Shown in pieces: positions 23,301-42,551 of a stretch of DNA of 64,000 bases. The notes beneath the pieces are model-generated. The model was not told the DNA's origin. It did not search any database and saw nothing but the letters and a program-made list of their open reading frames with translations. A program made the position numbers and the translations under genes. Within the stretch, counting starts at the first letter, position 1; the number at the start of each line of letters is the position of its first letter. Source of the DNA: an uncultured Agrobacterium sp. (GTDB taxonomy: Bacteria > Pseudomonadota > Alphaproteobacteria > Rhizobiales > Rhizobiaceae); contig CAJYTK010000009.1 of the NCBI GenBank assembly GCA_913777615.1, positions 244,285 through 308,284 of the forward strand. Direction: 5' to 3'.

Positions 23301-26300
23301 TGCCTGTTGCGAGGAGACGCCGACATGGCGCATCTGCACCTGGGTGCGTGTCCAGGCATGAACAAGTTCATGCGCGAAAGCATCCGGGTGACGATAGCGA
23401 TCGATCGCCTTGTCGACATCCTCACGGCCAGGCGCTGCAATCGTCCAGAAAATCACGCTGACCTTCTTGCCGGCAGGCACGCGCACGACGCGACGCAGCG
23501 ACAGGATCGGATCGAGCGTGAAGCCATCGGAATTCGAAAGCGTCGCTCCCTGATCGAAGGCGGCAGCCTCTGCAAGTGTGCGGCCACGGCCGATGAACTT
23601 GGCGCGATCGGTCTCGTATTCCGTCGCGCGAGACGTGCCGGCATTGTCTGCCGCCAGATGCGCGATGATGGTATCGGGATCGCTCGGCGAACGCTTGTTG
23701 CGCCATGCGCGGATGACATCGCCGCGCTTGCCGATTTCTGTCTGCACGAACATGCGCGAGAACAGAGGATGGGCGTTGTCGTCGTCCTCCTTGCCGATCA
23801 CCGGCTCGAGATAGGAGGTCACTTCGATGTAGCGATCTTCCGTCCCGACGTTAAGGAGGGTGATACGGCGACCTTCAGCATCATGCTCGGTGGCAACGAT
23901 GCACTCGACGACGCTCTGCAGATCGCCCACTGTTTTGTGGAATTCGGCACGATCGTCCATGAAGACAGTCTTGGTCTTTTCTCCTTCCGCAACGCGTGGT
24001 TCTGCGGTCGCACTCCACCATTGGCCAGTCGTGGTGTCGCGCAGGAACAGGAAGGTACCCCAACGGTCTTCCGTCGGATCGGCCTTCCAGCGGGATACCG
24101 CCTGGCCGTTCCACTTGGAGTAACCGGCACCGGTTGCCGTCAGCATCGTGGAATAGTGGCCGTTTGACAGGAACACCACGTCACGATCACGGATGGCCGG
24201 ATCGGTCACCGTGCGGATTTCGGCGCGCAGAAGATCCGCCTGTTCCTTGCCGGGAGTTTCCGGCTCGTACTTGGCGCTCATCACCGGCACTTCGCGCGGT
24301 GCTTTTTCCTGCAGCAGCAGTTCGGCTGCTTCGATCACCGGATCGGCATGGAACAGTTCACGCAGGAAACCATCGAAGGCGACGTTGGCGACAGCCGCAA
24401 TCGACATGCCATGGTGGTGGGCATAGTAGTTGTAGACGACGGCACAGACCTTGCCATCGGGAACGCGGGTCGGCGTAAAGTCCACGGCATCATGGAAGCC
24501 ATAGCGACCAAGCGCGCCGAGCTTGCGCAGCTTCTCGAGGTTTTCGAGCGCCGAGTCTGGATCGTACTGCGCGGCGAGGATCGACGCATAGGGCGCGATG
24601 ACGGCATTCTGGCCAAGACCACGCTTGAGGCCGAGCGTCGGAACACCGAAGTTGGTGTACTGGTAGTTCATATTGTGGTCGCGGGCATTGAAGGCCGCTT
24701 CGGAGATACCCCAAGGCGTGCCGAGACGGCGACCGTGATTGATCTGCTCACGAACGATCAGATTGTTGGTCTGATTGAGGATACCACCCTGACGCTCCTG
24801 CATGACGAGCGGCGGCATCAGATATTCGAACATCGAACCCGACCAGGAAACCAGCGCGCCCTGCGCGCCGATCGGCACGACCTGACGGCCGAGACGATAC
24901 CAGTGTTCCGTCGGCAGATCGCCCTTGGCAATCGCAAAGAGCGATGTCAGGCGGCACTCGGAAGCCAGCAAGTCGTAGCAGGCCTCATCCAGCTCCTGGC
25001 TTTCCACGCGGTAGCCGATCGAGAGCAGACGGCGATCCTTGCGATAGAGGAAGCCGAAGTCCATGGAGAAAGCGAGATTGCGGCTGCGATCGCGAAGCGA
25101 GGCAAGACGCTCCCGCAGCGAATCGATGGTGGAGTGATCGAAGGCGCTGTCGGAAATATGCGCTTCACAGCAATCCACCAGCATCTGCGCCCAGCGGGTC
25201 ATTTCGGCGCTTTGCTCGGACTTCACTTCCAGATCGAGATTGGCCGCAAGTTTCTGAATGTCACGCGCCAGAACCGCAAGGTTGATGACGCGGATCGAGG
25301 CGAACTCGTGCTCGCGCTTGACCGAGGTAAGCGCGTTGGAGAAGCCGATGATGCGCTCTTCCAGACGGCGGTGCAGCGGACGCAGGTTCTTGCGGTCGTC
25401 CGGCAGTTCTTTCAGGCTTTCGCGAACGATGCCGGCGACATCGCCGATACCGTCGAGATTGCCCTGAAGGTGAGCCGACGGCGCTTCCGCCCACTGGCGG
25501 CAGGCAGAGGAAATGGCGATCAGATGGCCGGCGAGGTTACCGCTATCCACGGCGGAAACGTAGCGGGGGCCGAGCGTCTGCAGCGTATCGGTATGGTACC
25601 AGTTGTAGAGGTGACCGCGATACTTCTCCATCTTCTCTACCGTCTCGATGGTCTTTTCCAGACGCTCGATCGTGTCGGAGAAGCTGATCCAGCCAAACTG
25701 ACGGGCAGAAATCGTCGACAGCAGGTAGACGCCGATGTTGGTCGGCGAGGTACGGCTGGCAACGATAGGCTCCGGCGTCTCCTGGAAGTTGTCCGGCGGC
25801 AGATAGTTTTCGTCCTTGTTGACGAAGGTCTCATAATAGCGCCACGTGCGACGCGCGATCTTTCTGAACTCACTCGACACATGCTCTGAAACGAACATGC
25901 GGTCTTCGGTTTCCGCAGACTGGCTGACATACCAGGCAACTACCGGCGAGAAGACCCACAGAAGAGCGAACGGGACGCCGACGAGGAAGGCATTGTCACC
26001 AGGGAGCGCTGCGAACAGAAGGCCCAGGAGAGCGACGACCGGCGCATGCCACATCTGACGATAGTAATCGAAGACGCTGCCCTGGGCGCTGGACTGCATG
26101 CTGGCGGCGGTACGCCATTCCAGCAGCAGCTTGCGGCTGACGAAAAGACGGTAGAGCGAACGTCCGATGGCATCAGCCATCATGCAGGCGCCGTCGGCAA
26201 TGAAGACGATGCGGAGCGCGACCTGTGCATTGGTAGCGCGGATTTCCGACCAAATCGTGTGGAAATGCGCCTGGGGCACGATATCCGTTGAACGCGGCAC

Positions 26301-28856
26301 AAGGCCCGTCAGAAGCGAGATGGTCGGCGCAACGAAGAGCGAGAAGATCAACAGAATCTGCCAGATCAGCGCGCCGAACGGGTCCATGAAGTACCAGCCG
26401 AGAACGGACGCCACGAACCAGGCGATCGGGGTCAGCGAGCGGCGCAGGTTGTCGATCATCTTCCAACGGCCGAGCGCGGTTACACCGCGTGCGGCATCGA
26501 GAATGTAGGGCAGCAACTGCCAGTCGCCACGCGCCCAGCGATGCTGGCGCGAGACTTCGACCTCATAACGGGTCGGGAAATCCTCGACGAGTTCCACGTC
26601 CGTCACCAATGCACAGCGGGCAAAGGAGCCTTCAAGCAAATCGTGGGAAAGAACGGAATTCTCGTCGATGCGGCCCTTCAGAGCCTTTTCGAAGGCATCC
26701 ACATCGTAAAGGCCCTTGCCGGTAAAGGTGCCTTCTGCGGTCAGGTCCTGGTAGACGTCGGACACGGTAAAGACGTAAGGGTCGATACCGCGGTTGATCG
26801 AGAAGACGCGCTGGAAGACCGACGCATCCTTACCCGTCGTCAGCGACGGCGTGACACGCGGCTGCAGCAGACCATAACCATGGATCACACGGCCGGTTTC
26901 CGGATCGTGAACCGGACGGTTGATCGGGTGATGCATCTTGCCGACGAGTTTGGTGACGGCATCGCGCATAAGGCGCGTATCGGCATCCAGCGTCATGACA
27001 TATTTGACATCCTTCGGCACGGTGTTCGCACCGTTGAGGAAGGTCGTGTCCTTGTCGCCGCGCAGCAACAGGTTCAGTTCATGCAGCTTGCCGCGCTTGC
27101 GTTCCCAGCCCATCCAGCACCCTTCGGACGGATTGTAGATGCGGCGGCGATGAAGCAGGAAGAAGCGGGTTTTGCCGTCAAAGGCGTAGCGCGCGGAGAG
27201 GTTCGCCACTTCGCGCTTGGCATATTCCAGAAGCTCCACATCCTCGGTGGTCTGCTCCTGCTGCGCATCGCGCCAATCGCTGATCAGCGAGAAATAGATC
27301 TCGCCATGGGGATTGGCGAGATAGTGGACTTCCAGATTGCGGATCATCTCGTCAACCGCATCACGGCTGGTGATCATGCAAGGCACGGCAACCAGGGTGC
27401 GGGCATCTTCAGGAATGCCGCTCTTGAACTCGTAACCGACAAGGCGGAACGGTTTAACGAAGAAAGTGACAAGCGTGTTGAAAAGACCTGTCGCGCCTTC
27501 GGAGGCTGGAAGTGCAAACATCAAGAGGAACGCGCTGACGACATACCAGGGCATGCCGGCTTCAGCCAGGAACCAGCCAACCGCCAGCATAGCAATAGCT
27601 GTCAGAACCAGAACCGGGACAGCAACGGCAAGCCAGTTGAAGCGGCGCATGGTGCGCACGACGCGCTGGGCAAACAAGGGATTGTAGCCAATGCGTTGCT
27701 CCAGTTCCTTGCGGCGCTGACCGACGAGGAAGGCGCCGACATTCGGCTGATGCGGATAGGCATCATTCGACGTGGCGGCTTCCGTCACCATGTCGACGGC
27801 AAGCTGAGCCACCTCAACTTCGGTCTTGCTGGAACGGCGCGCCAGCAGCTCCACATTGTTGCGGTAAGTGTTGCGCGAGCCGAAGTCGAGCGTTTCGTAG
27901 TCGGTCTGCTCGCGCAGAACCTTGTCGATGTGGCTGACGTCTTCGAACCAGACCGACCATTCGGTGTCATCGATCTCACGCAGGCTCTTGACGATATTGC
28001 CCATCGTCACGTTGCCAGAGGCAAGGCGGTTGTGCTCCGCCATCATAACGTTTTCAGCGTCGGTGCCGACGCTGTTGAGACGCTCTTCAAGCCAGTTCAG
28101 TGCGAAGTTCGAGGTTTGCGAGCCGTTCTTCAGACGATAGAGGAACTGGGTCGCGAATGTCGGGTCATCGACCAGCGGGTCGATCTGCTTGAGGAATTCC
28201 GCCGAAGGCTCCGCCTCGTTGAGACGGATGATCTCGTCCACCACCTCATTGGCCTTGTGGCGCATGCGGCGCGAGCGCTCGACACGAATGGAGATGCGAC
28301 GCAGGTTCTCGATCAGCACGAAGCGCAGGAAGGACGGCAGCGCCCAGATTTCACCGATCTGTAGCGTCTTGTTGGTCTGGAAGCCTTCGACCAGCGCCGT
28401 CAGACTTTCGCGCGAGACCGTGCTGTGGGTGTGGGCGACAAAGAGCCATGCCAGTGCCAGAGCGCGCGGGATTTCGGCATTGCCGATCCGCATCGTCGGC
28501 AGTTGCCGATAGAATTTCTTCGGGAAATCGCGACGGACTTCCTGGATGGCTTCTTCGATCACATAGTGATTGTCGAGCAGCCATTCCGCAGCCGGCGTGA
28601 TGGTCAGGCCGTTTTCCGAATCTACCGCCGTGGTGCGATAGACGCGCAGAATTTCCTTCTCGTTCTCGCGGTGACGCGCGAAGAAGTCGAACTCCATGAA
28701 ACCGGGAAGGGAGGCAGAACCTGAGTGCGACAGGTCTGCCCCGCAAGCTTTCAGCTCGTCTATGTTGAAATAGACAGAGCGGATCGAGTCGTTGTGATCG
28801 ATCTGCTTGGTTTCGGAGTCACGGGCGGCGGCGGTCGGCGTAATATGAAATGACAT
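20367..28856 (-). CDS. chvB: Cyclic beta-1,2-glucan synthase (ChvB/NdvB)
   Basis: This 2829-residue inner-membrane enzyme makes cyclic beta-1,2-glucan from UDP-glucose. The glucan serves osmoadaptation and is needed for attachment, virulence or nodulation in Rhizobiaceae. After an N-terminal cytoplasmic region, hydrophobic segments lie near residues 410-445. The GT84 glycosyltransferase follows, with LDADTR near 627 and the QHRWARGDW signature near 772. More membrane segments lie near 810-860 and 950-980. A glucoamylase-like middle region comes next, then a long GH94 phosphorylase-like C-terminal part (about 1550-2829) that sets chain length. The size equals the full-length family and no break is visible. 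The exporter gene chvA/ndvA is not in the window. chvB is the Agrobacterium name, ndvB the Sinorhizobium name. Confidence 0.97.
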   Translation of the reverse strand: MSFHITPTAAARDSETKQIDHNDSIRSVYFNIDELKACGADLSHSGSASLPGFMEFDFFARHRENEKEILRVYRTTAVDSENGLTITPAAEWLLDNHYVIEEAIQEVRRDFPKKFYRQLPTMRIGNAEIPRALALAWLFVAHTHSTVSRESLTALVEGFQTNKTLQIGEIWALPSFLRFVLIENLRRISIRVERSRRMRHKANEVVDEIIRLNEAEPSAEFLKQIDPLVDDPTFATQFLYRLKNGSQTSNFALNWLEERLNSVGTDAENVMMAEHNRLASGNVTMGNIVKSLREIDDTEWSVWFEDVSHIDKVLREQTDYETLDFGSRNTYRNNVELLARRSSKTEVEVAQLAVDMVTEAATSNDAYPHQPNVGAFLVGQRRKELEQRIGYNPLFAQRVVRTMRRFNWLAVAVPVLVLTAIAMLAVGWFLAEAGMPWYVVSAFLLMFALPASEGATGLFNTLVTFFVKPFRLVGYEFKSGIPEDARTLVAVPCMITSRDAVDEMIRNLEVHYLANPHGEIYFSLISDWRDAQQEQTTEDVELLEYAKREVANLSARYAFDGKTRFFLLHRRRIYNPSEGCWMGWERKRGKLHELNLLLRGDKDTTFLNGANTVPKDVKYVMTLDADTRLMRDAVTKLVGKMHHPINRPVHDPETGRVIHGYGLLQPRVTPSLTTGKDASVFQRVFSINRGIDPYVFTVSDVYQDLTAEGTFTGKGLYDVDAFEKALKGRIDENSVLSHDLLEGSFARCALVTDVELVEDFPTRYEVEVSRQHRWARGDWQLLPYILDAARGVTALGRWKMIDNLRRSLTPIAWFVASVLGWYFMDPFGALIWQILLIFSLFVAPTISLLTGLVPRSTDIVPQAHFHTIWSEIRATNAQVALRIVFIADGACMMADAIGRSLYRLFVSRKLLLEWRTAASMQSSAQGSVFDYYRQMWHAPVVALLGLLFAALPGDNAFLVGVPFALLWVFSPVVAWYVSQSAETEDRMFVSEHVSSEFRKIARRTWRYYETFVNKDENYLPPDNFQETPEPIVASRTSPTNIGVYLLSTISARQFGWISFSDTIERLEKTIETVEKMEKYRGHLYNWYHTDTLQTLGPRYVSAVDSGNLAGHLIAISSACRQWAEAPSAHLQGNLDGIGDVAGIVRESLKELPDDRKNLRPLHRRLEERIIGFSNALTSVKREHEFASIRVINLAVLARDIQKLAANLDLEVKSEQSAEMTRWAQMLVDCCEAHISDSAFDHSTIDSLRERLASLRDRSRNLAFSMDFGFLYRKDRRLLSIGYRVESQELDEACYDLLASECRLTSLFAIAKGDLPTEHWYRLGRQVVPIGAQGALVSWSGSMFEYLMPPLVMQERQGGILNQTNNLIVREQINHGRRLGTPWGISEAAFNARDHNMNYQYTNFGVPTLGLKRGLGQNAVIAPYASILAAQYDPDSALENLEKLRKLGALGRYGFHDAVDFTPTRVPDGKVCAVVYNYYAHHHGMSIAAVANVAFDGFLRELFHADPVIEAAELLLQEKAPREVPVMSAKYEPETPGKEQADLLRAEIRTVTDPAIRDRDVVFLSNGHYSTMLTATGAGYSKWNGQAVSRWKADPTEDRWGTFLFLRDTTTGQWWSATAEPRVAEGEKTKTVFMDDRAEFHKTVGDLQSVVECIVATEHDAEGRRITLLNVGTEDRYIEVTSYLEPVIGKEDDDNAHPLFSRMFVQTEIGKRGDVIRAWRNKRSPSDPDTIIAHLAADNAGTSRATEYETDRAKFIGRGRTLAEAAAFDQGATLSNSDGFTLDPILSLRRVVRVPAGKKVSVIFWTIAAPGREDVDKAIDRYRHPDAFAHELVHAWTRTQVQMRHVGVSSQQAAAFQHLGRYLVYPDMHLRADADTLKTGLASQRSLWSLAISGDFPIFALRINDDMDMDIVREALSAHEYLRSRGVIFDLVIVNERSASYAQDMQHALDHISEAQRRINPADGGRPHVFSVRRDLMDEETWAALLAASRVVLHVRNGKIVDQVNRAVSLFAANRGPDANATLARLPSPAYPVADPVEDTQDLDFWNGFGGFTKDGREYVVRLNRGQSTPHPWINVISNEKFGFHVSAEGASFTWSRNSRDYQLTPWTNDPVTNRPGEAIYVADAESGKIHSPFAAIGRNPEAVFEARHGLGYSTFRSVDDGLDIEVTQTVDREKPVKLSRLTIRNVGTQNRRLKTYGYVEWVLGNNPQKSAPFILSSHDEDTGTLFASNPYSIDYNERTSFLSLDGPSTSFTTSKREFIGRFGTINAPQAVVTGAALSGSTELDGAPCAAVMQEIHLKPGEERHVLFYLGDADTVDEARALVKDIRSSDFDTVLQANKDFWKGFTGQLQVSTPDAGFNHLVNTWLPYQAFSCRILARTAFYQSSGAFGFRDQLQDTLAFLLYQPDLARAQIIRAAGRQFVEGDVQHWWLPLTGAGVRTTISDDVVWLAYATYQYIATTGDKAILEEDIPFLKGAALMPGQHDAFFQPETSEKTANLYEHVALALDLAIHRTGENGLPLMLGGDWNDGMNLVGIGGKGTSVWLGWFLAGTLRDFIAIAEERRDLDRVERWKTHRDKLRAALETAGWDGDYYRRGYFDDGTPLGSSTSEECQIDSLGQSWSVLSGEGEADRSQQAMNAVMSKLVDEDLGIIRLFTPAFSRTPHNPGYIKGYPPGVRENGGQYTHAATWVVLALAKLGRSEDAWKCFSMLSPVNHALDRETSETYRVEPYVVTADVYGENAYAGRGGWSWYTGSAGLLYRAAVEGILGITRNGGKLHIAPSLPEAWDGFSVQVTIDGTTRDVSVKRTAGSADIAVTIDGKPVKSTDRAIPFD

Positions 28857-29403
28857 CGGCTCGTATTCTGGACCCTGAGTGAAATGCTGAGGCTAGTCTT
28901 TAACCCTTAACTGTTTCGGAGTTCTCATCGAGAGTGAAACAATGTGGCAAGCTTTATTTCGTGCTGATCCTGAACCTTTGCTGAACCACCGCGGACCAGC
29001 GCACGGTAGCGAGAAACAATCTTATCGCCCGACATGGTGAAATCGGGGCATTCGGATTTCACTATATAATATCAATAGTTTCTCGAGAACGAATTGGCGT
29101 CTAGGGGAGCATGACCCCGGAACCAGACATTTCGCAAAATTCCCCCGCGAAAACGCCGCTGCCTTTCCCCGATATCTCCCCATATCCGCTTGGCATTCTT
29201 CTTCATGACGTGATGTGATCAGAAGGTTTTGAATGTTTCAAGGCATTTTCAGTTCCATGCCATCTGTTTGATTGCCGCGCAAGAACACAAATCCAGGCCA
29301 ATAACAGCACGCCCTTATCAAGACGGTCCACTCTTGCTATTCATGATCGATGAAGAATGCGCCGGCCAGCAACCGCTGCGGCAAAGAGACGGAACAGCAA
29401 AGC
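28857..29403. promoter_or_regulatory. 547-bp divergent intergenic region, chvB / M20 hydrolase
   Basis: No gene is convincing here. The region is more AT-rich than its surroundings. An ACTATATAATATCAATAG stretch at about 29061-29078 could hold the -10 of a chvB promoter reading leftward. Next to it is the 10-bp palindrome TTCTCGAGAA (29080-29089). The chvB start at 28856 has only a weak GAG-type ribosome site. Nothing else is recognisable. Confidence 0.4.
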
Positions 29404-30585
29404 ATGACACTGCATCCGGTGACCATTTCCTCGTCGTCCAACGTCATGGAAGAGGTGGTTGAAATCCGCCGCCATCTGCATCGCAATCCGGAGATCGGCC
29501 TATCCGAATTCAAGACGTCCGATTTCGTCGCAGAGCGCCTGACTAAAATGGGCTACGAGGTAACGCGAGGCCTCGCAGGCACCGGCGTGGTCGCCACCTT
29601 GCGCAATGGCACAAGCAATCGCAGCGTCGGCATCCGCGCCGACATCGATGCCCTGCCGATCCACGAGGAAACCGGCGCCGACTATGCCAGCGAGACACCA
29701 GGCATGATGCATGCCTGCGGCCATGACGGCCACACCGCCATGCTGCTGGGCGCGGCGAAGATCATTGCTGAGCGGCGCAATTTCGACGGTACGATCCATC
29801 TGATCTTCCAGCCGGCAGAAGAAAATTTCGGCGGCGCGCGCATCATGATTGAAGACGGCCTGTTCGACCGCTTCCCCTGCGACGCAGTCTTTGCCCTGCA
29901 TAATGATCCAAGCCAGCCTTTCGGCCATTTTGTTTTGCGTGACGGCCCGGTGATGGCGGCAGTGGACGAATGCAAGATCACCGTCAACGGGTATGGCGGC
30001 CATGGGGCAGAGCCGCAAAGCGCCTCCGACCCGATCGTTGCCGGTGCCAGCATCGTCATGGCGCTGCAAACGGTGGTCTCGCGCAACATCCATCCGCTGA
30101 TGCCAGCCGTCGTCACCGTCGGCGCATTCCATGGCGGCAAGGCCAGCAATGTGATCCCGGAGACAGCGGAAATGCTGCTGACCATCCGCTCCTTCGACCC
30201 TGAAGCCCGCGATGAGTTGGAAAAGCGCATTCGCATGATCGCCGAAGGTCAGGCCGCAAGCTACGGCATGAGCGTGACGCTGGAGTATGAGCGCGGTTAC
30301 AGCCCGACCGTCAATCACAAGGCGGAAACGGACTATGTACGGGCGCTCGCCACGCGCTTTGCCGGGGCCGACAAGGTGCTGGAGATGGAGCGCCCGACCA
30401 TGGGAGCGGAAGACTTTGCCTATATGCTGGAGAAGCGCCTCGGCTCGTATTTCTTCCTCGGCACCAAGCGCACCGACAACGACCCGCCGCTGCACCATCC
30501 GAAGTTCGACTTCAACGACGATATCATTCCGATCGGAACCGCCTTCTGGGTGGAGCTTGCGGAAGATTTTTTGAAAGCTGACTGA
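29404..30585 (+). CDS. M20-family amidohydrolase (HipO-like)
   Basis: The 393-residue protein is an M20D metalloamidase. It has the metal-binding MHACGHDGHTAML near residues 100-112, PAEENFGGA, a dimerisation lid domain beginning around HFVLRDGPVMAA and the C-terminal MGAEDFAYMLE and HHPKFDFND blocks. Family members remove N-acyl or similar groups from amino acids, as in hippurate or N-acyl-amino-acid hydrolysis; the exact substrate cannot be told. The Met at 29404 is the best family match, though its ribosome site is weak; the open frame begins at 29350. It converges on cobM with only 2 bp between stop codons. Confidence 0.9.
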   Translation: MTLHPVTISSSSNVMEEVVEIRRHLHRNPEIGLSEFKTSDFVAERLTKMGYEVTRGLAGTGVVATLRNGTSNRSVGIRADIDALPIHEETGADYASETPGMMHACGHDGHTAMLLGAAKIIAERRNFDGTIHLIFQPAEENFGGARIMIEDGLFDRFPCDAVFALHNDPSQPFGHFVLRDGPVMAAVDECKITVNGYGGHGAEPQSASDPIVAGASIVMALQTVVSRNIHPLMPAVVTVGAFHGGKASNVIPETAEMLLTIRSFDPEARDELEKRIRMIAEGQAASYGMSVTLEYERGYSPTVNHKAETDYVRALATRFAGADKVLEMERPTMGAEDFAYMLEKRLGSYFFLGTKRTDNDPPLHHPKFDFNDDIIPIGTAFWVELAEDFLKAD

Positions 30586-30587
30586 AG

Positions 30588-31352
30588 CTACTCAGTGGCG
30601 GGCGTTCTGAAGCGGCGAACATAATCGGTGCTGTAGAGCGCGCTTTCGCGAAAATCGGACGATGCGAGCCCGTTACCAACGAAGATCATTGCGGTGCGCT
30701 CGACTGGCTCTTCCGCAAGAAGGGATTCTATATCGGACAGCGTACCGCGAATAACACGCTCTTCCGGCCACGAGGCTCGCACGACGATGGCCACCGGGCA
30801 ATCCGCGCCGTAAAGCGGCGTCAGCTCCTCGACCACCTGCCCGATGGCATGAATGGCGAGATGGATGGCAAGTGTCGCGCCTGTCGCGCCAAAGGCCTTG
30901 AGGTTTTCGCTCTCCGGCATTTTGGACGCGCGACCGGAAACACGCGTGAGCACCAGGCTTTGCGCCACTTCCGGCACCGTCAGTTCCCGCTTCAAGGTAG
31001 CCGCCGCAGCTGCAAAGGACGGCACACCAGGCGTCACGGTGTAATCGAGCCCGAGCCGTTCCAGACGGCGGATCTGCTCGCCCATGGCGCTCCAGACGGA
31101 AAGATCGCCGGAATGCAACCGCGCTACATCCTTGCCCTCCTTCGCAGCCGCAACGAACTCGGCCTCGATCTCGTCCAGCGACAGGGCTGCAGTATCGACG
31201 ATACGTGCGCCTGCCGGGCAATAATTCAGCAGCGCCTTCGGCACCAGCGAACCGGCATATAGGCAGACGGGAGAAGCGGCGATCAGATCGCGACCGCGCA
31301 GCGTAATGAGATCTGCGGCACCGGGGCCAGCGCCGATGAAATGAACTGTCAT
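30588..31352 (-). CDS. cobM: Precorrin-4 C11-methyltransferase
   Basis: The 254-residue SAM-dependent methyltransferase has the tetrapyrrole-methylase blocks [18 protein letters not shown], the [15 protein letters not shown] loop and [12 protein letters not shown]. It converts precorrin-4 to precorrin-5 in the oxygen-dependent route. It is the last gene of the minus-strand cob run and overlaps cobE by the 4-bp ATGA type. No terminator separates it from the convergent M20 gene. Confidence 0.95.
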
Positions 31353-31756
31353 GTCTTGTCTCCAGACGTGGCAAAGGCCACGGTAATATCGCCGACGATC
31401 ATGCGCGGCGCGATCAGTTTCGACGCTTCGCCAAGCGCTGCAAGTGCGGCTGCCTCGCTGACGCTTGGCGAACCGGCATATTTTGAGCTCAGTTCTGACC
31501 GGGTCAATGCGCGGTTCGCAGCGGCCTCGAAATCGGCCTGCGCCACCACGACGAAGGCCATGCCGAGCCGTGTTGCTGCTTCCAGCAAGGCGGGCTCATC
31601 CGCCTTGATCGGTGCCGTCGCAATAAAGTCGAACGCTACGCCGAACTTGGCAGAGGCCTGCGCGAGCGCGGCCAGGACGGCCTCCGGGCTGACACCCTTG
31701 CGGCACCCGATCCCCGCCACGATCACGGCATGTCCTTCGGTTTGACCCAGGACCAT
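31349..31756 (-). CDS. cobE: Cobalamin biosynthesis protein CobE
   Basis: The 135-residue protein matches the C-terminal domain of CbiG, which stands alone as CobE in aerobic producers. It shows the typical start [21 protein letters not shown] and the later [15 protein letters not shown]. It is needed for efficient cobalamin synthesis, but its exact reaction in the aerobic pathway is not settled. Its start lies 34 bp inside cobL and its end overlaps cobM by 4 bp, so it is tightly coupled to both. Confidence 0.88.
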
Positions 31757-32988
31757 TGCGTGACCGGCATGCCGGCACGCCAGCCCTGCATCTGCCCGAC
31801 CGGGGATGCGCGTGCAACCTCAAGCCGGATCAGGGAGCCGCCAAGCCGCGCCTGTGCCGAGAGCAGCATGGCCTCCATTTCCAGCGTCACGGCATTGGCG
31901 ACAAGCTTTCCGTCCGGCTTCAAGGCGCTGATTGCGCCCTCCAGAACCCCAGCCTCGCTGCCGCCGCCGCCGATGAATATGGCATCCGGCGTCGGCAAGC
32001 CTTCAAAGGCTTCGGGTGCGGTGCCAATCACCACGTCGAGACCCGGCACGCCGAAGGCTTGCGCATTGCGCATGGCGCGTTCTGCCCGCTCGGCATTCTG
32101 TTCAATACCGATAGCCCTGAGCGATGGGTGAGAGAGCATCCACTCGATGCCGATCGAGCCGGAACCTGCGCCTATATCCCACAGCAGCTCACCATGGCGA
32201 GGTGCGAGTGACGACAGCGTGACGGCGCGGATTTCACGCTTGGTCATCTGCCCATCATGCTCGAAAAGCGCGTCGTCCAAACCGCTGGCAAAAGGCAGTA
32301 TCCGCGCAGCCTCATCGGCAACGACCTCGATAGCAACCACATTGAGCGGGTCTATATCAGCAAAGTCAAAGTCCTTTGCCGTCGTCGCGCGGGGATTTTC
32401 GCGGGGACCGCCAAGCGCTTCCAGCAAGTGGAAAATTGACCGGCCAAAACCGGTCTCCTTCAGAAGAGCGGCAATCAGTGCCGGGGCGCTGGCATCGGAC
32501 GTGAGCGCGATGATCTTCGCACCGGACTGAAGATATGGGCGGATCAGATCGATGGAGCGCCCATGCAGGGAAATGCATTCGGTGTTCTGCAACGCCCAGC
32601 CGAGCCGCGAGGCGGCAAGCGAAATAGCCGACGGGGCTGGATAGGTGATCACTTCACCCGCATCGATGTGTCTCAGCAATGACACCCCGACGCCATGGAA
32701 AAACGGATCGCCGGAAGCCAGCACACAGACCTTTCTGCCCCTGAGCGCCACGACATCCGTCATGGCGACATCGAAGGGGACAGGCCAGGGGCGGGGCTCG
32801 CCTTTGATCGCACCAGAGACCAATCCGAGATGGCGCTTGCCACCGAAGACGACCTCGGCATTTTCGATGGCCTGGATGGCATTTGCCGGCAAACCGGCAA
32901 GACCATCCTCGCCGATACCGACGATGGAAAGCCAAGGCACAAGTTTTTCGCTGGCGACAGAGGATATTCCGTCATATTCAACGGCCAT
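31723..32988 (-). CDS. cobL: Precorrin-6Y C5,15-methyltransferase (decarboxylating)
   Basis: The product, about 421 residues, fuses two modules as in other aerobic CobL proteins. The N-terminal tetrapyrrole methylase begins PWLSIVGIGEDGL, and the C-terminal CbiT-like Rossmann methyltransferase has LLWDIGAGSGSIGIEWM and the IFIGGGGSEAG block. It methylates C5 and C15 and decarboxylates the acetate at C12, giving precorrin-8X. I place the start at the ATG complementary to 32986-32988, with GGAG six bases ahead; ATG codons up to 33018 are possible. Either way it overlaps or abuts the start of the oppositely oriented cobK. Confidence 0.94.
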   Translation of the reverse strand: MAVEYDGISSVASEKLVPWLSIVGIGEDGLAGLPANAIQAIENAEVVFGGKRHLGLVSGAIKGEPRPWPVPFDVAMTDVVALRGRKVCVLASGDPFFHGVGVSLLRHIDAGEVITYPAPSAISLAASRLGWALQNTECISLHGRSIDLIRPYLQSGAKIIALTSDASAPALIAALLKETGFGRSIFHLLEALGGPRENPRATTAKDFDFADIDPLNVVAIEVVADEAARILPFASGLDDALFEHDGQMTKREIRAVTLSSLAPRHGELLWDIGAGSGSIGIEWMLSHPSLRAIGIEQNAERAERAMRNAQAFGVPGLDVVIGTAPEAFEGLPTPDAIFIGGGGSEAGVLEGAISALKPDGKLVANAVTLEMEAMLLSAQARLGGSLIRLEVARASPVGQMQGWRAGMPVTQWSWVKPKDMP

Positions 32989-33766
32989 GACACGCTCCAT
33001 CCTCATTCTCGGCGGCACGGCGGATGCCCGTCTTCTGGCCGGAAAGATTGCCGACGAATCCGGCTACCGGATTTTGCTGTCCATGGCGGGCCGTACCAAG
33101 GAACCGGCGAAGCAACCCGTGCCGGTTCGCGTTGGCGGCTTTGGCGGCGCAGCTGGACTGAAGACCTTCCTCACCGAGGGAGGCTTCGATCTGCTGGTGG
33201 ATGCGACCCACCCTTACGCGGCGCGGATTTCCGCCAATGCTGCCGAGGCGGCTAGGCTGACCGGCGTGCCTCTGGTCTCGCTGTCGCGTCCGGCCTGGGT
33301 CGAAGAAAAGGGCGACCGATGGGAAAGGGTTGGCAGCGTGGAGGAGGCGGTGACCGCCTTGGGGAGCATCCGCCGATACGCCTTTCTGGCGCTTGGTCGG
33401 CAAGAGCTTTTGCCCTTTGAAACCGCACCCCAGCACAGCTATCTGATCCGCAGCGTCGACCCCGTGGAGCCGCCACTTGCCGTGCCGAATGCGCGCTACA
33501 TGACGGCCCGAGGACCCTTTGCGCTTGCAGACGAAATCGCCATGTTGAAGGGAAACGATATCGACGTCATCGTTTCGAAGAACTCCGGCGGCGCAGCGGC
33601 CTATGCGAAAATCGAAGCCGCACGCGTTCTCGGCATTCCGGTCATCATGATCGACAGGCCACCCCGCCTGCAATCCAGTGCCATAGGCATGGAAGTGCTG
33701 GATATCGAGACTGCGCTGACCGCCATCCGCCATCAGCTTTCCCTTCTGGAAAAACGCGGCGAATAG
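32987..33766 (+). CDS. cobK: Precorrin-6A reductase, embedded antisense
   Basis: The 259-residue NADPH-dependent reductase begins SILILGGTADARLLAGKIA and keeps family blocks DLLVDATHPYAARISANAAEAA, RYMTARGPF, VSKNSGGAAAYAKIEAAR and MIDRPP. It reduces precorrin-6A to 6B. It is the only plus-strand gene inside the minus-strand cob run and fills the whole gap between cobJ and cobL. Its ATG (32987-32989) shares a CATG with the cobL ATG, and its last 34 bp overlap cobJ. No upstream Shine-Dalgarno sequence is obvious, and any promoter must lie inside cobL. Confidence 0.94.
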   Translation: MTRSILILGGTADARLLAGKIADESGYRILLSMAGRTKEPAKQPVPVRVGGFGGAAGLKTFLTEGGFDLLVDATHPYAARISANAAEAARLTGVPLVSLSRPAWVEEKGDRWERVGSVEEAVTALGSIRRYAFLALGRQELLPFETAPQHSYLIRSVDPVEPPLAVPNARYMTARGPFALADEIAMLKGNDIDVIVSKNSGGAAAYAKIEAARVLGIPVIMIDRPPRLQSSAIGMEVLDIETALTAIRHQLSLLEKRGE

Positions 33767-34506
33767 ACCAGAGACGGCTGGTCCTGACGGTCGATAATGC
33801 GTGTCTCGACCGACCCGACAATGATGCAGGTCGCCATATCCGCCATATCGCTCGACGCTTCCGATAGGGGCACGACGCGCATACGCTCATCGGCGCGCCC
33901 GGCAGCGCGGCCGAAAATCACCGGCACCGAGCCCGGCAGGTGCGCCCGCAGCACATCGAAGGCCGTTGCCAGTTGATGCGGTCTTGCCTTGCTGACGGGA
34001 TTGTAGAAGGCCATGACGAAACCGGCTTCAGCTGCGGCCACCAACCGCTTTTCGATCAGCGACCATGGTTTGAGATTGTCGGAGAGCGAAATGGCGCAGA
34101 AATCGTGACCGAGCGGTGCGCCCGCCCGTGCCGCGACAGCGAGCATGGCCGTCACCCCTGGCACAACCGAAAAGTCGATGTCGCGCCATTCGGCAGGACC
34201 GTTCTCAATTGCCTCGCAGACCGCAGCCGCCATGGCGAAGACACCTGGATCGCCGCCTGAGACGACGCAGACCTTTCCGCCAGATGCGGCCAATGTCAGC
34301 GCGGCCTCGGCGCGGGAAATCTCTTCGCGATTGTCCGATGCGTGACGCCGCTGATCCGGACGCAGCGACAGCCGGTCGAGATAGGGAATGTAGCCGAAGA
34401 AATCTTCCGCCGCATCCACCGCAGCCAGCGCCTCCGGCGTAATCTGCGAAAGGCTTCCCGGCCCCAGACCAACGACCGTCAAACGTCCGGTGGAGGACGA
34501 GCTCAT
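33733..34506 (-). CDS. cobJ: Precorrin-3B C17-methyltransferase
   Basis: The 257-residue tetrapyrrole methylase carries out ring contraction with C17 methylation, giving precorrin-4. Visible blocks are LTVVGLGPGSLSQITPEA, VVSGGDPGVFAMA, VVPGVTAMLAVAARAGAPLGHDF and MAFYNPVSKARPHQL. Its start overlaps cobI by 4 bp and its end overlaps the convergent cobK by 34 bp. Confidence 0.95.
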   Translation of the reverse strand: MSSSSTGRLTVVGLGPGSLSQITPEALAAVDAAEDFFGYIPYLDRLSLRPDQRRHASDNREEISRAEAALTLAASGGKVCVVSGGDPGVFAMAAAVCEAIENGPAEWRDIDFSVVPGVTAMLAVAARAGAPLGHDFCAISLSDNLKPWSLIEKRLVAAAEAGFVMAFYNPVSKARPHQLATAFDVLRAHLPGSVPVIFGRAAGRADERMRVVPLSEASSDMADMATCIIVGSVETRIIDRQDQPSLVYSPRFSRRES

Positions 34507-35282
34507 GCAGGCTCTCCCGCCGGGCGATCCTTCCAGCCGGGCACGAGAACCAGAGAGAAATAGGGAGCGGGTGACTCGTCGCGCTCGATCAGGCGCATGG
34601 CATGTCCATTGGCCATGGTGCCGCGTTCGACATAGAGCGCGCCTTCCAGCTTACCTGCCTTTTCCAGCGCGCGGCGGATTTTCGGCAGGTTGCGACCGAC
34701 CTTCATGATGACAGCGCCATCCGTACCCGAGAGCCGCTCGAAAAGCGCATCCTCATTCAACGTACCCGGCAGGACGCTCAAGATATCGTCGCCCTGCACC
34801 AGCGGCAGTCCGGTCATCGACCAGCAGCCGGACATGGCCGTGATCCCCGCCACCACCTCCGCCGGATAATTCGGCGCAAGTCGAAGATGCAGATGCATAT
34901 AGGAGCCGTAGAAGAGCGGATCGCCCTCAGAGAGCACGGCCACGGTGCGTCCGGCATCCAGATGAACGGCGATATCGCGTGCCGACTGATCGAAAAAGGC
35001 AGCGATCGCGCCGCGATAGTCGTCACCGTTCTTGTCGCTTTCGACCGTGACCGGATAGACGAGCGGCATTTCCAGCGTACCGGGCCGGATGAAGCTTTCG
35101 ACGATGCCGCGGCCATTGCCCTTGCTGCCGCGCTTGCAGAAAAAGGCGATCACATCCGCAGTCTCGATGGCACGCACGGCCTTCAGCGTCAGAAGATCGG
35201 GATCGCCCGGACCGGTCCCGACGCCGATGACCTTGCCCTTCAACGCCTTTTCCGGTGTGGGATCGTAAAGTGCGGCACTCAT
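34503..35282 (-). CDS. cobI: Precorrin-2 C20-methyltransferase
   Basis: The 259-residue methylase makes precorrin-3A. It shows GVGTGPGDPDLLTLKAVRAI at the N terminus, VLSEGDPLFYGSYMHLHLRL, VVAGITAMSGCW and the GTMANGHAMRL ending region typical of CobI/CbiL. It sits in the coupled run cobH-cobI-cobJ with 4-bp overlaps on both sides. Confidence 0.95.
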   Translation of the reverse strand: MSAALYDPTPEKALKGKVIGVGTGPGDPDLLTLKAVRAIETADVIAFFCKRGSKGNGRGIVESFIRPGTLEMPLVYPVTVESDKNGDDYRGAIAAFFDQSARDIAVHLDAGRTVAVLSEGDPLFYGSYMHLHLRLAPNYPAEVVAGITAMSGCWSMTGLPLVQGDDILSVLPGTLNEDALFERLSGTDGAVIMKVGRNLPKIRRALEKAGKLEGALYVERGTMANGHAMRLIERDESPAPYFSLVLVPGWKDRPAGEPA

Positions 35283-35911
35283 AGGCCAGCCCTCGCAACG
35301 GCATTGACGGCGGCAGCCGTCATGGCGGAGCCGCCCATGCGGCCCTTTACGATAGCATAGGGAATGCCGAGCGTGCTGTCTTCCAGCGCATCCTTCGATT
35401 CCATTGCCCCAACAAAGCCCACCGGCATGCCGATGATCGCCGCAGGCCGCGGGGCGCCTCTTTCCAGCATTTCCAGGAGATAGAACAACGCCGTCGGCGC
35501 ATTGCCGATGGCAACCAAAGCGCCGTCGAGATGATCGGCCCAGAGATCGAGTGCGGCGGCTGAGCGGGTATTGCCGATGGTCTTTGCCAGCTCCGGTGTG
35601 CGCGGATCGCGCAGCGTGCAGATGACGGCGTTGCCGGCCGCCAGACGCGCCCGTGTGACGCCATGCGCTACCATTTCCGCATCGCAGAGAATGGGCTTTC
35701 CAGCGGCTAGCGCGCCGCGTGCGGCTGACACGAAATCCGCAGAAAAGCGAAAATGCCGGGCCGCCTCGACCTGTCCGCAGGCATGGATCATGCGAATGGC
35801 AATATCCGCCTGTTCGGGCGTGAAGGCGGTAAGATCCGCTTCCTCACGGATGATGGCAAAGGAGCGCTCATAGATCGCATCGCCATTGCGGATATAGTCG
35901 TAAGTCGTCAT
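35279..35911 (-). CDS. cobH: Precorrin-8X methylmutase
   Basis: The 210-residue isomerase moves the C11 methyl group to C12 to form hydrogenobyrinic acid. It has the family pattern YDYIRNGDAIYERSFAIIREEADL with RMIHACGQVEAARHFRFS (the active-site His), then the IIGMPVGFVGAMESK block. It is joined by 4-bp overlaps to cobG upstream and cobI downstream. Confidence 0.95.
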   Translation of the reverse strand: MTTYDYIRNGDAIYERSFAIIREEADLTAFTPEQADIAIRMIHACGQVEAARHFRFSADFVSAARGALAAGKPILCDAEMVAHGVTRARLAAGNAVICTLRDPRTPELAKTIGNTRSAAALDLWADHLDGALVAIGNAPTALFYLLEMLERGAPRPAAIIGMPVGFVGAMESKDALEDSTLGIPYAIVKGRMGGSAMTAAAVNAVARAGL

Positions 35912-37281
35912 GTCTCGTCCTGTCGGAGCGCCGCAATAACCCTGTCCTTGCCCAATCGGACAAACAGGCTGCGGGCATTTTCTCCGGGCTTATGTTCTTT
36001 TTCATAGAGGCGGGCAAGCCGGGAAAGCCCGGCCTGCGCTTGAGAGCCAGCCAAAATCGCGTCCGAGGGCGCCGAAACCTTGGCCTTATAGCCAAAGGAG
36101 AGGCCGCTAGCTGTGCCGGAAAAGGCAAGAAGGGCGGGCGCTGGATGGGCGCACCCCTTGCCGCAACCGGAGAGGTGCAGCGTTAAGGAGCCATCCAGCA
36201 TATCGCGACACTCTTTGGCGGCAAACGCGGCCAGCGATTGAACCGAGATGAAGGCCGATGCGCACGCGGGCGCCCCGGCACAAACGGCGATGGAAGAGCG
36301 CGTATCGCCATCGCTGACGACGAAGCCGGCACTCTCGGCGTAATCGAGAAGGGCGTTACATGCGTCGTTTTCGCCCACCGCATAGAACGCATGCTGCGGC
36401 CCGGGCCTGATGGATTGGACATCGATATCACGCGCCTTCCTGCAAAGGGCAGACAGGGCATCCGAGGTGATCTGTCCGAATGCGGGCGCGATGACGGCAG
36501 CAGATAGATTATCGTTCAAGGGCCAAAGCCTGCGCTGGTCTGCGCGCTTTTTCGTATCCGCATGTCTGGTTGAGGTCAGGGCAGTGGGCGGGACAGGCGA
36601 AAGACGATCCCCACACACCGCATGCACCGTCGCCCTATCCAAATCACGGCCCCGCACATCCGGCCCCCGTTCGGCGAGGTGGACGAGAAGATCGATGACG
36701 CAATCGGCAGCATCATGAGTTTGGACTGCCCCGGCGAGCAGCGCCTTGTCTTCCGTACCACCCAGCATCAGATGCCAGACAATGCCAACCTCATGCTGGA
36801 TAGCCTTCAGCCGAATATCGGCAAGCAACCCACCCATCGAAACCATACCATCGCCATCGACGATCACCGACATCTTGGGCGCGAGCTTGGCATCAAGACC
36901 GAGTGCTGCGGCCCTTTGACTGATCCGATCGAGGATCGGCGCGGGATTGGCGACCTCACTGCCGTCGATCCCGGCAATCGGCGACATTTCCACCGCAAGG
37001 CCTAGGCGCAAAGGAAGGTCTAGTGCGAGCACATCGCGCTCCAGCAGAACAGCGCTTTCGGCGGTCAGCCCACGAAACTGAAGGCTGCCGCGCGCAGTGA
37101 CGTCGAGAAGGCCGTTGCCGTGACGGTGTGCGAGAGCGGAAAGGGAATCGAGAGCAGACGGCGCAAGACCATCAGTGAAAGCCACGCGCGACAACAGACC
37201 GTCGCCGGTCTGCATCGGTGCGGACAGGGCAGGGCAGGCGCCACGGCGGGAAAAGGGCTGCACGGAAGGAAGCGGGTTCAA
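35908..37281 (-). CDS. cobG: Precorrin-3B synthase
   Basis: The 457-residue protein is related to sulfite/nitrite reductases and uses O2 to make precorrin-3B, which marks this as the aerobic pathway. It begins RRGACPALSAPMQTGDGLLSR. The [4Fe-4S] cysteines appear in CAGAPACASA (about residue 335) and SGCGKGCAHP (about 370). Two ferredoxin-like half-domains are visible around residues 20-90 and 240-310. Start and stop codons overlap cobN and cobH by 4 bp each. Confidence 0.93.
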   Translation of the reverse strand: MNPLPSVQPFSRRGACPALSAPMQTGDGLLSRVAFTDGLAPSALDSLSALAHRHGNGLLDVTARGSLQFRGLTAESAVLLERDVLALDLPLRLGLAVEMSPIAGIDGSEVANPAPILDRISQRAAALGLDAKLAPKMSVIVDGDGMVSMGGLLADIRLKAIQHEVGIVWHLMLGGTEDKALLAGAVQTHDAADCVIDLLVHLAERGPDVRGRDLDRATVHAVCGDRLSPVPPTALTSTRHADTKKRADQRRLWPLNDNLSAAVIAPAFGQITSDALSALCRKARDIDVQSIRPGPQHAFYAVGENDACNALLDYAESAGFVVSDGDTRSSIAVCAGAPACASAFISVQSLAAFAAKECRDMLDGSLTLHLSGCGKGCAHPAPALLAFSGTASGLSFGYKAKVSAPSDAILAGSQAQAGLSRLARLYEKEHKPGENARSLFVRLGKDRVIAALRQDET

Positions 37282-40200
37282 GCCGAAACCCTCGCCGATG
37301 GTGCCACCGATGACCGTGGTGCGATCAGCATCTCCAGTTCCGCATCCACCGCATTGCGGCGGCTGTGCCAGAGGTTGCGGTGGCGCGCGGAGAGGAAGCG
37401 CTCGGCCATCAACTCCGCTGCTTTCGGGTTCTCCCGCAGGATGAAGTCGCGCACCTCCTCATTGCCGAAATAGGCATCATAGACCGCTTCGATCAGCGAT
37501 GAGGAAACGGCTTGCGTGGTTTCGGCAAAACCGATCAACCGGTCGACGGTCTCGGCAAATTCGGCGGCACCACGCGGGCCGTGGCGCAGCTGCCCGGCAA
37601 TAAAGCGCGGATTGATCGCGCGGGCGCGCACGACCCGGGTAATCGCCTGCGCGATAGATCTGGCACGCGGGCGGGCGGGATCGGTCGTGTCGAGCGCCAC
37701 CACATCCGCTGCCTGCCCAAGCTTGGCCTTGGCAGCGGCAAAGCCGCCGATGAAGGCGACGTCCGACGAGCCATCCAGCAGATCGCGCCCCGGATCATCA
37801 CCGGTATGAACTAGAAGCTCGGCGCGTCCGACCTGGCGCGCAAACCCCGCATCAACAACGATCTCCAGCCCATCGGGCCCGCCAAAGGCGTGGCTTGCGG
37901 CATCCAGATAGGCTTGGCCCAGCGCCTCGCGCTCGTCCCAGTCCCCATGCGCAATAGCGTCTTCGATACCCGCGCCATAGGTGCCAGGGGCCGACCCGAA
38001 GATGCGTGCCGGCACATGACCAAGAGAGGCTGCCTCCTCAGCGAGCGGATTGTCGCCTGGGGACTCTTCCCGCGCCGCGATAGCCCTTGCCGCCGCATCG
38101 AGAAGCGCGATGAGAGCCGGAAACATATCGCGAAATAGGCCGGAAATGCGCAAGGTCACATCCACACGCGGGCGCCCGAGCGCTGCGGGCGGCAGAACCT
38201 CGATGCCGTTCACCCGGCCGGTCGCCTGATCGTAGATCGGACGCGCGCCCATCAGATGCAGCGCCTGTCCGACATCTTCGCCGCCATTGCGCAAAGACGC
38301 AGAGCCCCAGAGATCGAAGACCAGATGGCGCGGCCAGTCGCCATGGCTTTGCAAATAGTGGCGCAGCACCTCTTCGCCTGCGGCCTTGCCCAGCTCGAAG
38401 GCGGTCGGCGTTGGCATGGTGCGCGGGTCGGCAGCGTAAAGATTGCGCCCTGTCGGCAGCACGTCCAGCCGTCCTCGGGCTGGCGCGCCGGAAGGGCCGG
38501 GCAAAATGTGGTGGCCGTCCAGGGCGGCGAGCAGCGCTGCCTTCTCGCGGATCGCACTCTCGCGCCTCAGAGAATCCGGCTCATCATCCGCGCAGCGCCC
38601 AAAGACATGCTGGCCGTCCTTAATGGCGAAATCCTTCAGATCGCACAAAAACGCATCGATCCGCGTCAGCGCCGAATCCGCATCCTCCTCCACACCGATA
38701 CCGGCATCAGCGGCAAGCCCCGTCTCGAAGGCCTTTTCGACAATCAGCTTGGCCAGACGATCGCGGCGGCGGCGATCGAGCCCATCGGCCTGGGCATACT
38801 CATCGACCAGCTGTTCGAGTGCAGCCTGCTCCGGTGAAAGACCGGCGGACACTAGAACGGGCGGAATGTGCCCGATAGTGAGGGCGGCAATGCGCCGCTT
38901 GGCAACGGCAGCTTCCCCCGGATTGGAAACAATGAAGGGATAGATGACCGGCAGCGATCCGGTGACGATCTCCGGGAAACAGGCTTCCGACAATGCGACC
39001 GTTTTCCCGGGCAGCCATTCCAGCGTGCCATGCGCGCCGACATGGATGATGGCATGGGCGTCGCAATCCTGCTGCATCCACGCGCCGAAGGCGGCCAGCG
39101 CATGACGCGGCGGCAAGGCCGGATCGTGATAATCCACCCGCCTGTCCGCCCGCCGTCCACGATCCGGAGCAAGCGCGACAGTGACAGACCCAAAGCGGGC
39201 GGCACGGAACTGGAAGGATCCTTCGATAACGGCCTCATCGTCAGCCGCGTCACCCCAGGCGGACGTAATGGCGGTGCGGGCGGCAATTGGGAGACCGTCC
39301 AGAAAGTGGTGGTAGCGAGACATCGAAATACTGGCGCTCTCGGCCTTGATCCGATCCAGCAACGCTCTTGCCGTTTCCGGAATATCGCCAACCGCATAGC
39401 CCGCATCACGTAGGTCGCGCAGCATCTCCAAAACACTTTGCGGCACATCGAGACCGACTGCATATCCGGTGCGACCGGGTGCAGCACCCGGATAGTCCGG
39501 CATGAGGATAACGAGACGCCTCTCCGCCACCGGCGTCTGCGTCAACCACAGATGGGCAGCGATTCGGTCTGCGACCTGGGCCACACGATCCGGCTCTGGA
39601 GCATTGAGCAGTCCTTGGCGCCCGGTAAGGTCGGACTGCTTGAAGGAGATGGCACCGGCCAGAATCCGGCCATCCAGTTCCGGCAGGACCACATGCATGG
39701 CAAGATCCGATGGGTTGAGGCCGCGCATGTTCTCAGCCCAGGCATCGCGCCGCGTCGTGGCCATGATGACCTGGAAAACCGGCACGCCAAGCCGGTCGAA
39801 CAGGCTTTTGCCGTTCTCATCCGTCTGGCTGGCGAAGGCCGTTGCGGCGATGATGGCCGCAGGCTTCAGCGGTGCCAGCGTGTCTTCCAGAAACAGAATC
39901 GCCTCACCATCCTTCAAGCCACTGACGAAAATCGGCAGGGGGGCAAAGCCGCGGTCCTTCAGCGCCTCAAAAAGCACATCGATGGCCGCGGCATCGGCTG
40001 CCAGAAGCATGGAACGGTAAAAGAGAATGGGCAGCCTTGGAGCATCAGGCCGAAAAGCGGAGAGCGCTTGAGCAAGATCGACCTCGCCAAGGCCTGGGAT
40101 ATAGAAGCCGGATTTCGGCAGAGGCTCTGGCTCGACATCCGGCCAGACGCCTTCCTTGGCAAAAGCGGTGAGGCCTTCGCAAAGACGGCGCATGTTCTGC

Positions 40201-40637: not shown

Positions 40638-40643
40638 GACGCG

Positions 40644-42100: not shown

Positions 42101-42224
42101 ACCGAGCCCGCTTCCGCTGTTACAACATGCAAGGGGTGCGGTGCCGAAGACGGAATGCGAGACAGCGCAAACCGATATTCGGCGGAACTGACTGACCGGA
42201 GCACCCCGCCCGGCAGACGTTTTT

Positions 42225-42417: not shown

Positions 42418-42423
42418 GCCTTA

Positions 42424-42452
42424 CCTTTACGGGCAAGCTGGCTTGCGGTCAA
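42424..42452 (-). promoter_or_regulatory. Sigma-70-type promoter of the riboswitch transcript
   Basis: On the minus strand TTGACC (42447-42452) and TAAAGG (42424-42429) are separated by exactly 17 bp, placing the start site near 42417, at the edge of the riboswitch. The spacer contains GCAAGC-CA-GCTTGC, a perfect 6-bp inverted repeat that could bind a regulator. Confidence 0.6.
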
Positions 42453-42551
42453 TGCGCGGATTCTTGAACGATGCTCTCGGTGCCATTGCCGAGAAGGGCG
42501 TTTTGACTATAGTCGCCGCTTCCAAAACAGGCTCGGAAGGACGTGGACATC

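Follow-up and report, generated by a model that had tools for sequence, protein, structure and literature searches.

In Staphylococcus aureus, a noncontiguous operon has been described whose opposite mRNA pairs with an 'internal untranslated region', as stated in the passages of PMC7154746 that deal with it. In ambigrammatic narnaviruses, an intact reverse open reading frame (ORF) is needed, its sequence is not conserved and the authors suggest, in the part of PMC8316113 on this point, that what matters may be the act of translation. Between adjacent genes, overlaps of 4 and 1 nucleotides (nt) are a signature of termination-reinitiation, which the relevant section of PMC10666635 reports to be almost abolished at ~20 nt in the E. 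coli and Haloferax pairs examined. Overlaps between all adjacent pairs along cobH-cobI-cobJ-cobK-cobL were published in 2012 for Ensifer adhaerens and three further Ensifer, as well as for Rhizobium leguminosarum and P. denitrificans SC510 (in the portion of PMC4070679 on these genes). Here we analysed a stretch of 64,000 nt from an uncultured Agrobacterium sp. (Rhizobiaceae; assembly GCA_913777615.1, contig CAJYTK010000009.1, positions 244,285 to 308,284), referred to below as the window, in which cobK lies reversed between cobJ and cobL. Our comparison of sequences indicates that the antisense frame of cobK is under selection to remain open, with coupled-type junctions at both ends, and we regard it as likely that the minus-strand cob run is one transcription unit that passes through cobK antisense and is translated there as a coupled, product-free bridge from cobJ to cobL.

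The original prediction placed cobK, on the plus strand, exactly in the gap between the minus-strand genes cobJ and cobL, with the ATG codons of cobK and cobL in one CATG and a 34-bp overlap between cobK and cobJ. ORF coordinates and profile identities bore out the placement, and the motif and the overlap were confirmed in the sequence. It made no mention of a minus-strand ORF of 251 codons that stood in the same ORF list. The codons of this bridge ORF pair one to one with those of cobK, and only the codons at the cobK 3' end, which cobJ overlaps, extend beyond it. We ruled out that the bridge is an N-terminal extension of cobL, as in the window its frame differs from that of cobL and it stops 11 nt within that gene. 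Antisense ORFs of such length are commonly dismissed as guanine-cytosine (GC) artefacts, and in a single genome this one is unremarkable: in the same genomes, cobJ, which is about as long as cobK, lacks an in-register antisense stop in 78 of 192 loci and cobI in 70 of 143. Since an open frame means little in one genome, its significance can come only from comparison.

We classified 314 loci by profile searches; they are mostly the best-scoring hits of each search, and the loci are related. A PF02571 match was present in 244 of 297 genomes at family level, 201 of 249 at order level, 113 of 337 at class level and 109 of 398 at phylum level, these sets being overlapping. The arrangement of the window, with cobK reversed between cobL and cobJ (J<K>L<, hereafter class I), recurred in 200 of the 314 loci, a recurrence beyond chance; it is widespread, already in print and not special to the window's genome. 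cobK and cobJ overlapped in 170 of 184 class I loci. Elsewhere, cobK follows cbiD on its own strand in 85 loci: it converges with cobM in 55, shows no cob gene on its far side in 25, and precedes cobM (3) or cobH (2) in the same orientation in the rest. In 4 loci cobK runs with cobJ and cobI, and in the final 25 its neighbours are of other kinds or unseen. The 55 convergent loci (e.g., L055, L062 and L063) form a second recurring layout, in which cbiD-cobK faces cobM, with cobA or cobB frequently next on the opposite strand; there cobK is antisense to the main cluster, mostly without a bridge. Thirty low-scoring family hits added to the sample yielded no class I locus. Removal of identical cobK sequences left 192 class I and 113 other loci; our earlier counts rest on 184 class I loci, of which 181 have a GC content at third codon positions (GC3) of at least 0.55.

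In-register antisense stops TGA, TAG and TAA correspond to the cobK codons TCA, CTA and TTA. In the 181 class I cobK genes, TCA accounted for 2 of 958 TCN codons, CTA for 3 of 4388 CTN and TTA for 2 of 407 TTR. The TCA share in the same genomes was 5.3% in cobJ, 4.1% in cobI, 6.5% in cobH, 7.2% in cobL, 11.0% in cobE and 7.0% in cobM, and their other cob genes used CTA at 1.4-2.9% and TTA at 2.5-8.6%; in the cobK genes of cbiD-bearing loci the shares were 9.3% (TCA), 1.0% (CTA) and 8.7% (TTA). Other A-ending codons of class I cobK were not depleted likewise (Pro 5.8%, Thr 4.7%, Ala 6.9%, Val 4.1%, Gly 8.3%, Arg 5.8%), those for Thr and Ala being slightly lower than in the neighbouring genes and those for Arg above most of them. 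The three triplets occurred 17, 925 and 939 times at offsets 0, 1 and 2 in 46157 cobK codons, and at offset 0 they numbered 169 in 46150 cobJ codons and 458 in 72344 cobL codons (three closed loci excluded throughout). As offsets 1 and 2 are not depleted in cobK, the register frame alone is affected. From the codon usage of each genome's cobJ, cobL and cobI we expected 227.9 antisense stops in the 192 cobK genes and observed 57, of which 29 sit in two low-GC loci; when these two were excluded, 206.9 were expected and 28 observed. Genes with zero stops numbered 170, against 84.0 expected. Taking one locus per 60%-identity cluster (41 clusters), we observed 34 zero-stop genes and 36 stops, with 17.6 and 64.4 expected, respectively.

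These counts bear on the alternative that cobL-cobE-cobM have a promoter inside cobK and that the open antisense frame is merely a high-GC effect. The frequency of open frames within single genomes, given above for cobJ and cobI, would fit it, as would a local peak of synonymous conservation in cobK to which we return below. Against it, cobK genes of matched GC3 outside class I carry many more antisense stops (mean 2.44 vs. 0.29 in class I at GC3 0.65-0.75, and 1.11 vs. 0.13 at 0.75-0.85), and the other frames of cobK show no depletion. Moreover, a sigma-70 consensus scan of positions 30400-42700, a weak type of scan, returned 3 sites compared with 2.7 in shuffles and none in cobK, and no Rfam match over the gathering score, and hence no second riboswitch near cobL, was found in 20 gap or closed loci. 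We consider this alternative very unlikely.

The antisense frame was open through cobK in 186 of the 192 distinct class I loci. From the cobJ stop to the cobK start, these 186 loci hold 12 stop-equivalent codons in 45396; by our definition of open, those 12 fall at the extreme 5' end of cobK, over which the frame terminates at cobL. Every class I locus was open in 33 of 37 family labels, three of which are names that possibly coincide with numbered families, and one of the 33 (f229) lies outside the taxonomic class. Five named plasmid records were also open (R. leguminosarum WSM1325, S. meliloti AK57, Methylorubrum extorquens CM4, Novosphingobium humi and R. tropici CIAT 899); the bridge was annotated as a gene in none of the three with an annotated region, in a plasmid gene table that is incomplete. 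As control slots we used loci in which cbiD-cobK lies antisense between cobM and cobA or cobB: the frame was open through cobK in 7 of 48 and a junction start was present in 4 of 48, and four further loci of this kind, whose left side is unseen, were open in 2 and had a junction start in 0. Stop-equivalent codons average 4.75 per gene in the four loci where cobK runs with cobJ and cobI. The cobA-K-cbiG slot, open in two of three loci and with a junction start in none, offers too few to use.

Both ends of the frame resemble gene junctions. An in-register start codon lies on the cobJ stop in 179 of the 192 loci: ATG (118), GTG (42) or TTG (8) one base ahead of TGA, a 4-nt overlap (168 NTGA), and ATG in the remaining 11 as TGATG, the 1-nt form of the window. 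Of 186 loci, 118 have an A immediately before the cobJ stop, compared with 7.2% A at cobJ third positions. The cobJ stop is found at varied distances from the end of cobK (overlaps of up to 67 nt, or gaps), and the bridge start tracks it. The cobI/cobJ junction is of the same type, with a 4-nt overlap in 112 of the 143 loci with a cobI call. We ruled out that the start-codon signature is a by-product of a conserved His of CobK, as the distance between the codon and the cobK stop varies from 0 to 21 codons across 172 loci; the ratio of CAT to CAC was 112:37 at the junction position and 545:490 elsewhere (Fisher p = 1.5e-7).

At the other end, 181 of the 182 open loci with an assigned cobL start have the stop of the frame within -50 to +30 nt of that homology-chosen position, four more having none assigned, and the commonest bridge/cobL overlaps are 11, 8, 4 and 14 nt. 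With cobL taken from the closest in-frame start codon that coincides with or precedes the homology start, a choice that leans towards the result, 167 of the 182 showed one of these four overlaps. Some cobL starts are uncertain, and the one in the window is among them, being itself a choice: the homology script picked an internal GTG (window 32940; 1442 in locus L001), and the ATG at 32988 is preceded six bases upstream by GGAG (32995-32998). The annotated cobK/cobL overlap in the R. leguminosarum WSM1325 plasmid record (L310) is also 2 nt. Nineteen loci open through cobK have a gap of 62-365 nt between cobK and the assigned cobL start; in 18 of them the frame reaches cobL and stops there, whereas shuffled gaps would give 4.05. 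Likewise, it crosses the 116-431 nt that separate cobJ from cobK in eight open loci, five of which have a start on the cobJ stop. Bridge length ranges from 236 to 409 residues (median 248) in the 179 loci with a junction start. By eye, the gap parts of longer bridges (L014, L021, L067, L069, L166, L133, L038, L013 and L024) resemble translated dispersed intergenic repeats in frame, as if only open insertions were tolerated. A separate observation concerns the cobK stop, which is TAG in 148 of 186 open loci, while TGA prevails in cobJ (183/186), cobI (132/139) and cobL (170/182); the cobK preference is probably set by the overlapping cobJ codons.

The locus had originally been likened to the noncontiguous operon of S. 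aureus. The gene geometry holds, with an opposite-strand gene between genes of one operon in 192 distinct loci; the likeness ends at the antisense stretch, which is untranslated in S. aureus according to the part of PMC7154746 that covers it and is an open, coupled-type frame here, so that the interpretation is partly supported. A plain operon of the S. aureus type, in which an untranslated antisense stretch and mutual reduction of the mRNAs by collision and RNase III would account for the locus, shares this geometry with a case described in review. An untranslated stretch, however, gives no reason for stop avoidance in one register or for the kept start and stop junctions, and we judge this explanation to be quite unlikely. 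Mutual repression of cobK and the operon could coexist with the bridge. It had also been proposed that cobL-cobE-cobM must use either read-through or a promoter inside cobK; of the two, the comparative evidence favours read-through, to which we add that the antisense stretch is itself preserved as a coupled-type ORF.

A further alternative is that the bridge is a real protein gene overlapping cobK antisense, with a conserved product, as its gene-like start and stop junctions and conserved frame might suggest. A silent change in cobK is a change at the first base of the antisense codon. Divergence at four-fold sites was about equal in the three genes (cobK 0.271, cobJ 0.285, cobL 0.290; 33 disjoint close pairs). 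In distant pairs (below 62% protein identity), antisense residue agreement given the same sense residue, as observed over shuffled, was no higher in cobK (1.107) than in the controls cobJ (1.118) and cobL (1.104). The window bridge had no NCBIfam or Pfam match at E 0.001, and three gap-extended bridges had no Pfam match at E 0.01. In a tblastn search with the bridge, plasmid cob loci appeared at 32-38% identity among the matches listed; with CobK as the query, identity was ~57% in the best 40. The bridge product is thus not detectably conserved by sequence, with no sign of purifying selection on its amino acids in distant pairs. A conserved protein product therefore seems highly improbable to us, even with the close-pair agreement given further below.

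For the translated, product-free bridge we propose the following course of events. A minus-strand transcript would run from the riboswitch through cobJ, the antisense of cobK, and then cobL, cobE and cobM. Ribosomes ending cobJ would restart on the start codon that overlaps the cobJ TGA, read the cobK antisense as a bridge whose product is irrelevant, stop at the cobL start and restart there. cobK is read from the other strand and needs a plus-strand promoter of its own; no conserved -10 element was seen upstream of it in 60 loci with the common CATG. Ribosomes on the bridge would prevent Rho polarity, duplex formation with the cobK mRNA, or both, and would feed cobL by coupling. Since the avoided codons can matter only to a triplet reader of the antisense strand, that is, to ribosomes, selection suggests that in most of these lineages minus-strand RNA spanning cobK is made often enough and undergoes translation. 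An untranslated stretch in bacteria with Rho invites termination, and as reinitiation was almost abolished at ~20 nt in tested pairs, an untranslated gap as long as cobK would be expected to break the flow to cobL. From these comparisons we infer the read-through RNA, the actual reinitiation and the benefit that would drive them. On balance we also favour, with less assurance, a wider reading in which cobK is an ambigrammatic cellular gene with both strands translated, and ribosome bridges are a general, unannotated device that would let bacteria with Rho polarity tolerate a reversed operon gene, kept across more than 30 families.

Several observations weigh against a translated, product-free bridge. 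Six of the 192 loci are closed (L045, L087, L228, L290, L291 and L307), and the family f237, outside the taxonomic class, is open in only one of its four loci, the other three being closed. Thirteen of the 192 have no junction start, seven of these with an open frame, and in L199 the frame stops 115 nt short of cobL. Of the 179 bridge starts, only 80 have a Shine-Dalgarno (SD)-like 4-mer ahead of them, SD-like motifs being weak evidence. In close pairs (75-90% protein identity), antisense agreement is higher in cobK (0.662) than in cobJ (0.594) or cobL (0.588), an excess that would also favour a protein gene and that we do not take as product conservation because genes differ in rate at equal protein identity. 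Finally, the peak of synonymous conservation mentioned above covers cobK codons ~155-163 (window ~33449-33475; score 3.9, standard deviation 0.96; 181 cobK genes) and could be an internal signal. Regarding the closed loci, at least 60 nt of intergenic space lie beside cobK in five of the six, compared with 25 of the 186 open loci (Fisher p = 3.7e-4), a difference that fits loss of the bridge with a promoter in its place. A similar synonymous-conservation peak (4.2) was noted in cobL at about codons 225-235, numbered from the script start at 32940.

The features of the window are collected in Table 1. Profile searches agreed with the identities of CbiJ/CobK, CobJ, CbiE-CbiT/CobL, CobM, CobI, CobH, CobG, CobN and CobW. 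A single cobalamin riboswitch was found, on the minus strand, and given its position the run reads riboswitch, DUF1636, cobW, cobN, cobG, cobH, cobI, cobJ, [cobK reversed], cobL, cobE, cobM.

Table 1. Features of the cob run and of the cobK locus in the window
Feature	Position	Strand	Basis
cobK, precorrin-6A reductase; embedded gene opposite the operon strand	32987-33766	+	Pfam PF02571, E 3.4e-67; NF005968 over cut-off
Antisense bridge ORF, 251 codons, codon-aligned antisense to cobK	32978-33733	-	ORF list; no family match
TGATG, cobJ stop and bridge start with one base in common	33731-33735	-	sequence; AAGGG 33741-33745 seven bases upstream
Bridge end (TGA 32980-32978) overlapping cobL start (ATG 32988-32986) by 11 nt	32978-32988	-	sequence
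CATG holding both the cobK ATG and the cobL ATG	32986-32989		sequence
Convergent 34-bp overlap of cobK 3' end and cobJ 3' end	33733-33766		sequence, ORF coordinates
cobJ, precorrin-3B C17-methyltransferase	33733-34506	-	profile search
cobL, precorrin-6Y methyltransferase (CbiE-CbiT)	31723-32988	-	profile search
cobE (CbiG C-terminal domain)	31349-31756	-	profile search
cobM, precorrin-4 C11-methyltransferase, last gene of the run	30588-31352	-	profile search
cobI (34503-35282), cobH (35279-35911), cobG (35908-37281)	34503-37281	-	profile search
cobN (37278-40637), cobW (40644-41678), DUF1636 gene (41675-42100)	37278-42100	-	profile searches
Cobalamin riboswitch heading the run	42217-42429	-	Rfam RF00174, 122.3 bits

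The window's genome (~92% complete) carries cobG, cobE and cbiD (G000:C9:208564-209595, 413.6 bits), and gave no CobF match over the cut-off, the best being 51.8 bits at the place of cobI. The idea that the J<K>L< arrangement pairs with cobF and the other layout with cbiD is therefore unsupported here. At the 3' end of the cob run, a gene for an M20-family peptidase (plus strand, 29350-30585) stops two bases from the end of cobM, so that the two are convergent at almost zero distance. Beyond it, a minus-strand gene of 2829 residues (20367-28856) has GH94, glycoamylase-like and weak glycosyltransferase matches; we take it to be a cyclic beta-1,2-glucan synthase of the NdvB/ChvB type.

The cobK locus thus presents a long antisense ORF that is held open by selection in one register, with gene-like junctions and a drifting product. 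It offers a clean natural case for three questions: can antisense translation be functional when no product is needed, by what means does an operon get past a reversed gene where Rho is present, and are other noncontiguous operons translated across their reversed genes? If true, the bridge would be a new way to keep an interrupted operon working. In cob operon engineering in Ensifer or Sinorhizobium, a recoded cobK could silence cobL-cobM unnoticed.

Among known systems, the S. aureus operon menE-menC-MW1733-ytkD-MW1731 resembles this locus in having an opposite-strand gene inside an operon, fully overlapped by a presumed polycistronic RNA. It differs in that the antisense region at cobK is an open frame with coupled-type junctions, which sequence comparison shows to be kept by selection. 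E. coli O157:H7 has long overlapping genes in antisense orientation (pop/ompA among others; PMC7103648, PMC9927249), reportedly protein genes, which share with the bridge a long ORF embedded antisense in a known gene; at cobK, by contrast, the openness of the frame is conserved across many families and the product is not detectably so. As for termination-reinitiation, the cobJ/bridge junction is of the same type as cobI/cobJ and shows the 4-nt or 1-nt overlap, a form that suggests coupling, although the coupled partner is here the antisense of another gene rather than a gene with a needed product. As no bacterial counterpart of a translated, product-free bridge was found among the titles listed in searches of the open-licence PMC literature, we take a noncontiguous operon with such a bridge as new. 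A further parallel in form lies in the narnaviruses, whose reverse frame is codon-aligned, with UUA, CUA and UCA avoided. cobK likewise has a reverse ORF in codon register over the gene, avoidance of TTA, CTA and TCA (7 in 181 loci) and a reverse product that is not detectably conserved. The two share a full-length antisense ORF without conserved sequence and differ in their setting, the one being RNA viruses of eukaryotes and the other a bacterial gene whose reverse ORF joins two neighbouring genes.

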